From Flagellimonas sp. MMG031 (lineage in GTDB: Bacteria > Bacteroidota > Bacteroidia > Flavobacteriales > Flavobacteriaceae), in contig NZ_CP157804.1 in assembly GCF_040112705.1 (NCBI RefSeq), forward strand, positions 1,490,501 to 1,554,500: DNA of 64,000 bases. The letters are read 5' to 3'. The position numbers were made by a program, and so were the translations under genes. Each line of letters starts with the position of its first letter. Positions within the stretch are counted from its first letter, which is position 1. This document shows positions 9,421 through 42,397 of the stretch, one piece after another. Below the pieces are notes generated by a model. It saw nothing but the letters and a program-made list of their open reading frames with translations, searched no databases and was not told the origin of the DNA.

Positions 9421-10185
9421 TCACTTTTTTACCAGCGGGATGATTTCCCCCTTGGCCAAACGGTACTTTTCTACATCTTCCTTTGGAAGTGTATTGGTGT
9501 AATCCACTTCTTCAACGCTGAAGCCTACACTACGAAGCTTATCAAAATAATCCCTTCCGTAAATGCGTACATGGTCGTACTGACCGAAAATCCGTGCCCG
9601 CTCCTTTCGGTCGGTAATGGTATTGTCCTCAAAGGTTTGCTCTCTTTTCAGGTCCTGCGGAATTTGGAATATGCCCCAACCTCCCGGTTTCATCACACGG
9701 TAAAGCTCCTGCATGGCTTTGGTGTCATCGGGGATATGCTCCAGCACATGGTTGCATAAGATGACATCAAACGTGTCCTCATCAAAAGGTAAGTGGCAAA
9801 TATCAGCTTTTACATCGGCCAAAGGCGAATTCAGATCAGTAGTAGTGTAGGTAATATGGTCCAACTTTTTAAAGCGCTGATAAAAGGCCTGCTCGGGTGC
9901 AAAGTGTAACAGCTTTATGGGCCTGGTAAAGAAGTCTGTCTCATTTTTGAGATAGAGCCACAAGAGTCGATGCCTTTCCAGGGATAAGGTAGAGGGGGAG
10001 AGGACGTTTTCACGAGGATTTTCGTATCCGTAAGGCAAAAACTTCCTGAAACTTTTTCCATCGATGGGGTCGGTATATGTTTTTCCCTTTAGGGAAAGGG
10101 CAATCAACGGCCGCACCCAATAGCTTAATCGGATGAGTAAAGGACGAGGGATTAGATTCAGAAAATATTTAAAGATGTTTGACAC
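9421..10185 (-). CDS. Class I SAM-dependent methyltransferase
   Basis: A 254-residue methyltransferase of the Methyltransf_11 type. The SAM-binding region is LLHFAPEQAF (motif I-like, about 89-98), ADICHLPFDEDTFDVILCNHVLEHIPDD (post-I to motif II) and VMKPGGWGIFQIP (motif III). Substrate unknown. The only available upstream start is GTG at 10185, preceded by an in-frame TAA two codons earlier. That GTG lies inside the GACAC of the inverted repeat bordering the GxxExxY element, so the original 5' end may have been altered by the element's arrival. Confidence 0.85.
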   Translation of the reverse strand: MSNIFKYFLNLIPRPLLIRLSYWVRPLIALSLKGKTYTDPIDGKSFRKFLPYGYENPRENVLSPSTLSLERHRLLWLYLKNETDFFTRPIKLLHFAPEQAFYQRFKKLDHITYTTTDLNSPLADVKADICHLPFDEDTFDVILCNHVLEHIPDDTKAMQELYRVMKPGGWGIFQIPQDLKREQTFEDNTITDRKERARIFGQYDHVRIYGRDYFDKLRSVGFSVEEVDYTNTLPKEDVEKYRLAKGEIIPLVKK

Positions 10186-10211
10186 GAATTACACGAATTT
10201 CCTCTAATTGG
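10178..10211 (+). repeat. Left inverted repeat of the GxxExxY element
   Basis: Starts TTTGACACGAATTACACGAA and continues to TCTAATTGG. Compared base for base with the copy at 42244, 29 of 34 positions agree. It contains the GTG start of the methyltransferase at one side and the stop codon of the GxxExxY gene at the other. Confidence 0.8.
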
Positions 10212-10587
10212 ATTGTAATATTACTCTTTTATAGGTTAAACTATCTTCACCAAAGTTTATAATTAATCCTAGTTTCATTTTTGATGCTGCCAAGTAATTC
10301 AATGTTTGTTTGATATGTCCACTGGTGATTTTTTCGACGGCCTTAAGCTCTAAGATGATTTTACCGTCCACCAAATAATCTGCATAATAGTGATGCATTA
10401 GCTTTTCACCTTTGTAGATGATGTCAAATTTTACTTCTTTTTGGAATGGAACGCCATTGGACTTTAATTCAATTTCAAGGGCATCGCAATAAACTGCTTC
10501 ACTGAATCCTTTGCCTAGCTCACTGTGAACATCCATGCACAAACCAATCAAAAAGTAGGATTCGTTTTTATAAATGATTTGGGACAT
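10204..10587 (-). CDS. GxxExxY protein, PD-(D/E)xK nuclease-like
   Basis: An intact 127-residue protein. The name-giving motif is present as Gly27-x-x-Glu30-x-x-Tyr33 (KGFSEAVY). A nuclease-type core follows: Asp70 and Asp74 (ADYLVDG), then Glu80-Leu81-Lys82 in IILELKA, and a downstream HIKQTLNYL helix with Gln94. This pattern matches RecB-like PD-(D/E)xK folds. The family is widespread and multicopy in several phyla (known); its function is unknown. The stop codon overlaps the left inverted repeat and the right repeat lies a few bases upstream of the ATG, so coding region and repeats form one compact unit. It could be a selfish nuclease or a domesticated repair protein. Confidence 0.9.
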   Translation of the reverse strand: MSQIIYKNESYFLIGLCMDVHSELGKGFSEAVYCDALEIELKSNGVPFQKEVKFDIIYKGEKLMHHYYADYLVDGKIILELKAVEKITSGHIKQTLNYLAASKMKLGLIINFGEDSLTYKRVILQSN

Positions 10588-10593
10588 TTATTT

Positions 10594-10620
10594 GAGAAAT
10601 TGGTGAAATTCGTGTCAATA
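10594..10620 (-). repeat. Right inverted repeat of the GxxExxY element
   Basis: Read on the minus strand it is TATTGACACGAATTTCACC followed by AATTTCTC. It matches the start of the solo copy at 23422 almost perfectly over about 20 bases. It is inverted relative to the repeat at 10178. Confidence 0.8.
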
Positions 10621-23379: not shown

Positions 23380-23428
23380 ATCGGGAGTGGTAAGTTACGA
23401 GTTATGGGTCTCGTGTTGGGCGTTGACA
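23380..23428 (+). repeat. Degenerate 7-bp repeat array A
   Basis: Seven consecutive heptamers: ATCGGGA, GTGGTAA, GTTACGA, GTTATGG, GTCTCGT, GTTGGGC, GTTGACA. Six of the seven begin with GT. The last heptamer is also the start of the CACGAATT element at 23422. Confidence 0.6.
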
Positions 23429-23454
23429 CGAATTTCACGAATTAGCACCAATAG
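23422..23454 (+). repeat. Solo copy of the GxxExxY-element end
   Basis: GTTGACACGAATTTCACGAA then TTAGCACCAATAG. The first about 20 bases match the right inverted repeat of the GxxExxY element at 10594-10620. No gene is attached. Confidence 0.7.
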
Positions 23455-23460
23455 GGTTCT

Positions 23461-23513
23461 TGTCATTTCGAGCTGTCACCCTGAGCGCAGTCGAAGGGGC
23501 AGTAGAGAAATCT
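23461..23513 (+). repeat. Nested REP-like palindromes
   Basis: An outer element TGTCATTTCGAGC ... GCAGTAGAGAAATCT is split at its centre by a complete inner element (23474-23498: TGTCACCCTGAGC then GCAGTCGAAGGG). Both belong to the GTCA-GAGCGCAGTCGA type of dispersed palindrome that I recall as common in Flavobacteriia. Confidence 0.7.
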
Positions 23514-23521
23514 TTGTTGGA

Positions 23522-23598
23522 GTCAAAAGTCAAAAGTCGGGAGTCGGGAGTCAGCAATAGAATATCTAACATCTAAAGTCTAAATTCTGTTATCTAAA
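23522..23598 (+). repeat. Degenerate 7-bp repeat array B
   Basis: Eleven consecutive heptamers: GTCAAAA, GTCAAAA, GTCGGGA, GTCGGGA, GTCAGCA, ATAGAAT, ATCTAAC, ATCTAAA, GTCTAAA, TTCTGTT, ATCTAAA. The rest of the 302-bp spacer (23370-23671) between the two genes is array A, the solo repeat, the nested REP and AT-rich promoter DNA. Confidence 0.65.
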
Positions 23599-23671
23599 CG
23601 AATTTGGCAAGTTAATTGCGTTAGCTAGCATAAAAACGTAACATTGTTTCCCAATTAAAGATTATGATACG

Positions 23672-42192: not shown

Positions 42193-42243
42193 GATGTCAG
42201 CTATTCCATCTTGAGCACAGTCGATAATCTCTTTCTTCTGTTG

Positions 42244-42280
42244 TTTGACACAAATAGCACGAATTTCCACTAATTAGCGC
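42244..42280 (+). repeat. Solo copy of the GxxExxY-element end
   Basis: TTTGACACAAATAGCACGAA then TTTCCACTAATTAG. It agrees with the left end of the GxxExxY element (10178-10211) at 29 of 34 positions. No gene is attached. Confidence 0.7.
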
Positions 42281-42281
42281 G

Positions 42282-42307
42282 GGATGCCGAAACTAGTTCG
42301 GCATGAC
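42282..42307 (+). repeat. REP-like palindrome
   Basis: ATGCCGAA, loop ACTAG, TTCGGCAT, flanked by GGG and GACG. It resembles the dispersed GTCATGCTGAACT-type palindromes I recall from Flavobacteriia. Confidence 0.65.
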
Positions 42308-42335
42308 GTTTTTCTTGGAACGTTTTTTCTATGGG

Positions 42336-42366
42336 TTGTCATGTCGAGCGCAGTCGAGACATCTTT
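42336..42366 (+). repeat. REP-like palindrome of the GAGCGCAGTCGA type
   Basis: TTGTCATGTCGAGCG then CAGTCGAGACATCTTT. Same central motif as the nested element at 23461-23513. A degraded relative (TTGAGCACAGTCGATAATCT) lies nearby around 42203-42222. Confidence 0.65.
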
Positions 42367-42397
42367 TATAACGGTCGTGTTATACTAATTTCACATT

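Follow-up and report, generated by a model that had tools for sequence, protein, structure and literature searches.

GxxExxY nuclease genes between inverted iteron arrays: a candidate transposase-less nuclease-repeat element in Flagellimonas and other genomes

The window, a 64,000-nucleotide stretch of the Flagellimonas sp. MMG031 genome, contains a small nuclease gene between two short repeat arrays, its two neighbours and two further arrays that lack a gene:

9421..10185, minus strand: gene for what we take, from its sequence, to be a SAM-dependent methyltransferase; its start codon lies inside the 3' array, and it is one neighbour of the old GxxExxY site
10178..10211, plus strand: 3' array of the nuclease gene, TTTGACACGAATTACACGAATTTCCTCTAATTGG, in the opposite orientation to the 5' array
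10204..10587, minus strand: GxxExxY/PDDEXK_3 nuclease gene, intact, 127 aa (profiles, alignment and structure model)
10588..10618, minus strand: 5' array of the nuclease gene, reading TTGACACGAATTTCACCAATTTCTCAAATAA on the minus strand and ending at the nuclease start codon
10637..11455, minus strand: map, presumably encoding methionine aminopeptidase (named from its sequence); the other neighbour of the old GxxExxY site
23422..23454, plus strand: gene-less array within an intergenic repeat stretch; shared with G041, a genome of the same species, and missing from the corresponding place in the congener G019
42244..42280, plus strand: diverged gene-less array; present in G041, absent in G019

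The nuclease was identified by profile searches with TIGR04256 (GxxExxY; E = 9.6e-40, 135.6 bits, curated cut-off 35) and PF13366 (PDDEXK_3; E = 2.3e-36, 125.2 bits, cut-off 22). On either side of the gene stands TTGACACGAATT(T/A)CAC, with both copies pointing inward, and the sequence and its open reading frames agree with the original prediction that the ends enclose one gene whose stop codon lies in the left end. That end (10178-10211) contains the nuclease stop codon (10204-10206) and provides the adjoining methyltransferase gene with its GTG start (10183-10185). The ends are not single repeats; they are arrays of about three 9-bp units, CACGAATTN, that decay inward. No transposase was found between the arrays, where the nuclease is the only gene among the open reading frames and PDDEXK_3 and GxxExxY are the sole matching profiles.

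Exact matches to TTGACACGAATTWCAC occur in the window at 10179 (+), 10603 (-) and 23423 (+), and a further copy, at 42245, has 3 mismatches. The predicted gene-less copies at 23422-23454 and 42244-42280 therefore exist, the latter being identical to the 10178-10211 end at 29 of 34 bases. The window count alone is weak, since the four matches found at up to 3 mismatches, against 1.41 expected, were also reached in 6 of 100 shuffles. Across the 3.76-Mb genome, TTGACACGAATTNCAC at up to 2 mismatches gave 30 matches and the reversed control pattern 0, indicating that the repeat is not due to chance. The GxxExxY gene itself is single-copy in this genome; the expectation that such genes are multicopy holds for other genomes, with up to 11 matches, but not here.

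The putative catalytic set of the window nuclease is complete (E30, D70, E80-x-K82 and Q94-x3-Y98). Alignment showed that E30, Y33, D70, E80, K82, Q94 and Y98 are invariant among 19 GxxExxY proteins and that E30, D70, E80, K82, Q94 and Y98 are invariant among 63. The structure model has a pLDDT of 94.5, and structural search returned Cas4 SSO0001 as the best PDB match of the predicted fold, with LHK-Exo, MGME1 and others behind it and the homing enzyme I-Bth0305I among the weaker Foldseek matches; sequence search returned no convincing relatives of solved structure. The fold is thus predicted to be Cas4/RecB-like. The protein shares with the Cas4/RecB (lambda-exonuclease-like) family this predicted fold and the invariant D, E-x-K and Q-x3-Y, which is the RecB-family motif. 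It differs from Cas4 in its size (~125 aa), its direct neighbours (map and the methyltransferase gene) and its position between iteron arrays. Cas4 carries a four-cysteine iron-sulphur cluster, which the window protein, with only two cysteines in 127 aa, lacks. For 25 of 30 nuclease genes of the genus (L010, three genes with stops and, by hand, L037 were left out), the median dN/dS was 0.05 over the 91 of 300 pairs with measurable synonymous distance. The window-type nuclease is under purifying selection.

We investigated the flanks of GxxExxY genes in a sample of 392 Bacteroidota genomes, 194 of which had a match at E <= 0.001 and 191 a match above the cut-off (0 to 11 matches per genome), which makes this a common nuclease family. 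Ninety loci were picked by high score, blind to repeats, and 84 were scored, six being without the motif regex. An inverted-repeat score of at least 14 between the 5' and 3' flanks was found in 54 of the 84 loci and in none of 84 distant windows from the same loci. Flanks paired across loci reached this score in 39 of 500 cases, and the direct orientation reached it in 25 of 84 loci, long direct repeats being present. A second set comprised 83 further loci, three of which were dropped at contig edges; the score was at least 14 in 53 of the 80 scored (77 from named genomes and 3 viral) versus 0 of 64 controls. Some high scorers are not iterons by eye (e.g., L209, L244, L250, L266, L280 and L281), and 30 of 84 phylum loci and 27 of 80 second-set loci, including two of four archaeal ones, are without a strong inverted repeat. 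Good array cases came from Planctomycetota, Chloroflexi, Acidobacteriota, Gammaproteobacteria and two of the four archaeal loci.

The units have the consensus C-R-C-N-R-A-G/T (~7 bp) and a period of 9-11 bp, with the variants CACAGAG, CACGGAG, CGCAAAG, CACAAAG, CGCAGAT and CACGAAT. Over 221 GxxExxY loci, found from 230 tried and including some places fetched twice, 988 units pointed inward versus 271 outward, and inward units stood on both sides in 169 loci, outward units in 28. The prediction that the window ends would flank other GxxExxY genes was borne out for inverted arrays as such, which occur at most sampled genes, but the CACGAATT type belongs mainly to one protein subfamily.

Unit type was compared with protein subfamily. 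Subfamily A (GPGLLE[SN]) had AG units at 143 loci, AT units at 8, mixed units at 4 and none at 5. Subfamily B, the window type, had AT units at 42 loci, none at one and AG at 0 (AT 14 and none 1 without Flagellimonas), and subfamily C (GNGF) had AT units at 5 loci and none at 6; seven loci outside these subfamilies were AG (3), AT (1) or mixed (3). On a tree of 190 proteins, built from a short alignment and with many weak forks, the AG/AT label changed 6 times, and AT treated as a group changed 9 times versus a shuffled mean of 29. Eleven genomes hold both A and B genes, and in these the A genes had AG units in 11 of 11 and the B genes AT units in 10 of 11 (none in one), so the unit tracks the gene and not the genome. 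As read from the sequences, these results show that the array unit is associated with the nuclease lineage, even within one genome.

Solo arrays, which lack a gene, were counted across genomes. At least 5 CACRGAG doublets were present in 45 of 194 genomes with a GxxExxY gene versus 1 of 198 without (Fisher 2.7e-14), a count that includes the genes' own ends; after subtraction of 4 doublets per gene copy, the numbers were 15 of 194 versus 1 of 198 (p = 1.9e-4). The reversed control pattern reached five doublets in one of the 392 genomes. At least 4 CACGAAT doublets, own ends included, were found in 14 of 19 genomes carrying a B-type gene versus 3 of 61 without (4e-9), and a weaker test, at least 2 doublets in genomes outside the family of Flagellimonas, gave 4 of 7 versus 4 of 56 (p = 0.003). 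These results show that solo arrays are enriched in gene-carrying genomes; relatedness inflates the p values, and part of the gene-repeat correlation may stem from shared ancestry. Twenty solo sites were fetched, and 11 in G319 and G425 were compared with hand-set arms, one G319 site being left out. The two arms of a palindrome fit each other better than the arms of other elements in the same genome (medians 29.5 vs. 20.75 in G319 and 37 vs. 18.5 in G425). Several solo sites in G343 are not palindromic. G425 (L289-L293) has 45 CACRGAG doublets, several of them in near-perfect palindromes, and a GxxExxY gene was not detected in it, while two relatives from its family have one; its arrays may be orphans or go with an undetected enzyme.

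The nuclease domain also occurs inside longer proteins. With a long query that contained RecG, 204 such proteins were retrieved, 120 of them among the matches listed; the retrieved proteins lean to RecG because the query itself included a RecG-type nuclease domain. Among 127 proteins, the domain is inserted in RecG between DEQHRFG and MTATP in 90 and in EF4/LepA before DTPGH in 6, and 31 fit neither anchor pair or the regex. The inserts are found in P0127, P0129 and most of P0130-P0247; several of the RecG-insert proteins are named as Patescibacteria, and the sole named LepA-insert protein is from a Nanoarchaeota bin. Flank peptides were back-translated with a relaxed three-unit pattern, which was designed after the peptides had been viewed, the inserts being known here from proteins alone. 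The RecG left flank was compatible with three inward units in 63 of 83 proteins and with outward units in 0 of 83 (background 58 of 1899 windows), and the right flank in 29 and 0 of 83 (background 19 of 1899). The LepA flanks (n = 5) were compatible in 2 cases inward and 0 outward on the left and in 5 inward and 1 outward on the right (background 2 and 3 of 96). A strict two-unit test was weak: 4 of 90 RecG left flanks were inward and 0 of 90 outward, 10 and 1 of 90 right flanks, and 8 and 3 of 436 controls, with LepA giving 0 on the left and 1 inward plus 1 outward of 6 on the right. Since most RecG cases may share one event, the in-frame cases count as few independent events. The peptides beside the RecG and LepA inserts could be translated iterons.

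A C-terminal ComB fusion (P0231) is also readable as an inward array, and a kinase insert (P0128) had no iteron-compatible flank peptide in the relaxed test. In G233, GxxExxY is fused N-terminally to a full RecQ helicase (L380:3295-5928; frame read and profiled); RecQ fusions also occur in proteins named Balneola, and G124 has an open frame of similar length. To take the nuclease for a helicase partner, a Rosetta-stone interpretation of its fusions to RecQ and RecG, is weakened: the inserts in RecG and LepA are internal and in frame, their flanks are iteron-compatible, and other hosts (the kinase and ComB) are unrelated.

We examined the history of the window locus in 71 genomes of the genus, close named proteins being from Flagellimonas/Allomuricauda. 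A GxxExxY gene above the cut-off was present in 33, and all 30 analysed loci sit between map and the methyltransferase gene. In the 27 loci covered by unit scoring (three were missed by the regex), inward CACNAAT units were found on both sides in 23, on one side in 3 and on neither in 1, and outward units on both sides in 1. At the locus without such units, L010, the same spot is taken by another GxxExxY type, whose arrays are of the CACAGAG kind. Forty genomes lacking an intact gene were classed by eye at the orthologous position: 14 showed no trace of the element, having a native gap of 22-39 bp and a methyltransferase gene starting ATGAAA, 17 retained a right end, clear or weak, that gives the GTG start, 7 had a decayed or partial gene, and 2 (G014 and G067) were not assignable to a class. 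Remnants alone thus occur in 24 of 71 genomes. The median repeat count was 10 where a full-length window-type frame is present (29 genomes, three of them with one stop in the frame), 4.5 in the 24 remnant genomes and 0.5 in the 14 with the native gap. With shared ancestry not removed, gene and native-gap genomes differed at p = 0.002 after subtraction of the gene's two ends, and remnant and native-gap genomes at p = 0.001.

In other genera, both neighbours were found by tblastn around GxxExxY in 15 of 203 loci; these include eight from genus g2 (inferred to be Flavobacterium) as well as loci of Gelidibacter, G268 and G296. Nucleases of the A and B types, each with its own kind of array, occupy this site across genera and, as L010 demonstrates, even within one genus. 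The window gene is stable, as all 30 genus loci are at one locus and it is present there in other genera. The Flagellimonas copy is an old, maintained and often lost resident, not a recent insertion. Recent transposition of the window copy is ruled out by the single place of all 30 genus loci and by the same place in other genera; what was found instead is a resident of several genera with decay, loss and native empty sites. The comparison of orthologous loci thus yielded native empty sites but not clean boundaries with a target duplication.

The long stay at one locus and the dN/dS of 0.05 would fit a domesticated regulator or genome-maintenance nuclease; the arrays would then serve as binding sites or as RNA hairpins (terminators or end protection), processed by the nuclease for the host and spread by ordinary recombination. 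As RNA, the 11 solo palindromes fold at -26 to -122 kcal/mol, as this reading would allow. We judge it quite improbable: 24 of the 71 genus genomes keep remnants alone, the number of matches per genome in the phylum ranges from 0 to 11, and the in-frame insertions in RecG and LepA are hard to read as regulation.

The gene-less arrays were compared base by base at four sites among the genome of the window, the same-species G041 and the congener G019. Like the two window arrays, the array at genome position 2429734 is present in G041 and absent in G019; the one at 1118857 is in all three genomes, with altered letters in G041. Empty and filled orthologous sites were therefore both found for gene-less arrays. 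No target-site duplication was found at the four sites, where boundaries are blurred by adjacent repeats and divergence. The window copies are not simple miniature elements, as they are embedded among larger repeats; palindromic miniatures do occur in other genomes (G319 and G425). At 23450-23600 and 42200-42380, other intergenic repeats (TGTCATTTCGAGC...GCAGTCGAG; AAAAGTCAAAAGTCGGGAGTC; CTAACATCTAAAGTCTAAATTC) directly adjoin the solo arrays. Elsewhere in the same genome, L302, L304, L305, L308 and L309 are clustered dispersed repeats, often ~200 bp apart, around 748-752 kb, 797-801 kb, 940 kb, 2785 kb and 2979-2982 kb; they hold a CACTAATTTCACGAATTAGCACGAAT array followed by AGGGTTCTTTGTCATTTCGA..., and the array looks as if it were carried along by a different repeat family. 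The repeats that surround the solo arrays of this genome may themselves move by other means.

Such an embedding, with many solo copies within larger repeats, is what would be expected if the association were passive: another system would move the arrays, which would be sequence-preferred hotspots for insertion or recombination, and GxxExxY would be along as a passenger or act as a toxin or defence nuclease; small nucleases frequently have defence roles. We consider this very improbable, since the unit tracks the nuclease lineage inside single genomes, the window protein has no clear PADLOC match (one weak match, 18.1 bits), and a type-A query had no match among 50,697 phage records and eight among 72,556 plasmid records. 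Carriage by phages or plasmids was rejected on these counts for a type-A query. Of two viral scans, the first was without relatives and the second had three contigs.

The position of the gene in the middle of an inverted array, together with similar palindromes without a gene, also recalls homing: the nuclease would cut gene-free arrays and the gene would be copied in by double-strand-break repair, the arrays being split targets and the solo palindromes empty ones. The in-frame residence in RecG and LepA, the A-type and B-type nucleases with their own arrays at the same map-methyltransferase site (L010) and the weaker structural match to I-Bth0305I are consistent with this. It is nevertheless unlikely. 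Three of the four solo arrays compared differ between congeners and are therefore unexplained by homing of the gene alone; moreover, no orthologous site was caught whose array is empty in one genome but filled in another, and the genus has clean native gaps without any array, its solo right ends resembling decay.

We think it rather probable that the window gene and its two inverted iteron arrays are a unit of a widespread, transposase-less, RAYT/REPIN-like nuclease-repeat element. The Cas4/RecB-like nuclease would recognise the iteron of its own lineage, CACGAATT here and CRCARAG in the larger subfamily, and would nick or trim DNA at the inverted arrays, acting either on double-stranded iterons spaced by roughly one turn of the helix or on an array folded back into a hairpin. 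The array would then be copied to new, mostly intergenic sites by the repair or replication of the host. The copy would mostly be gene-less, giving REP/REPIN-like palindromes, and would sometimes include the gene. We infer recognition, cleavage and copying from the sequence patterns, which point strongly to mobility of the gene-array unit over evolutionary time. The earlier suggestion of a selfish or REP-like nuclease stands in so far as a PD-(D/E)xK enzyme is paired with REP-like DNA (flanking arrays, solo arrays, subfamily-matched units and RecG/LepA inserts), but the window copy is not freshly inserted, and no target duplication was seen at the four array sites compared. A broader formulation, in which GxxExxY and its iteron arms form an autonomous transposase-free mobile class of bacteria and archaea, with a lineage-specific iteron code, gene-less palindromes mobilised in trans and whole in-frame insertion, seems to us evenly poised between right and wrong.

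As in RAYT (TnpA-REP)/REPIN systems, one maintained nuclease gene stands between short repeats in inverted orientation, copies without the gene, often palindromic, occur in the same genome, the location is mostly chromosomal and the repeat sequence tracks the nuclease lineage. The flanking inverted repeat is also dispersed without the gene, as in RAYT systems, but there is no HUH/Y1 transposase: RAYT is an HUH/Y1 (IS200/IS605-like) enzyme, whereas GxxExxY is a Cas4/RecB-like PD-(D/E)xK one. REPs are hairpins with a GTAG-type tag, whereas GxxExxY repeats are 7-bp iterons every 9-11 bp, and GxxExxY arrays also occur at two archaeal loci. Unlike an insertion sequence or MITE of a known transposase, the window element is without a transposase. 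Rickettsia palindromic elements likewise place palindromic repeat DNA in frame within protein genes, but the GxxExxY insert carries its own nuclease domain between two arms. PD-(D/E)xK homing endonucleases are also small nucleases resident in conserved genes, as in RecG and EF4/LepA (the window copy is intergenic); GxxExxY differs in the inverted iteron arrays at its ends and the gene-less array copies, and no intron or intein was seen.

A nuclease with matched inverted iteron arrays is thus a general, lineage-linked unit that is RAYT/REPIN-like in organisation, not in enzyme. In the open-access literature, GxxExxY was found named in two papers only (PMC8934634 and PMC12085832), neither of which, judging by title and passages, deals with repeats; its Pfam number is cited in one. 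The passage of the Caldithrix abyssi paper (PMC5317091) concerns a different palindrome. No description of these GxxExxY-linked repeats was found in the open-access literature; as this was the literature searched, a description elsewhere is possible. The link to a lineage-matched iteron provides a substrate on which the GxxExxY nuclease can be tested and, for the repeats, an enzyme that probably makes them. The pairing points to a type of selfish repeat element that has yet to be described and does without a transposase. If true, it would explain the CACAGAG- and CACGAATT-type repeats strewn through many genomes. It would, if confirmed, be a second, independently evolved counterpart of RAYT/REPIN using the Cas4 enzyme fold, and the idea that nuclease-repeat units insert in frame into housekeeping genes would become testable.

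Several other features of GxxExxY loci were observed. At L109, L111 and L115 the gene stands before what is presumably an arsC-like gene, and at L117, L124 and L136 before a gene starting MKIKLIDIAHGRSGDKGDAANIG; each place is common to different genera. L137 (G232:C30:42628-44139) has a long tandem CACAGAT run with a ~47-bp period on both sides of the gene, all in a single direction. Direct repeats with scores up to 146 surround the gene at L113, L152, L167, L175 and L188, and those at L113 contain a right-end, spacer and left-end cassette, as if there had once been tandem elements.
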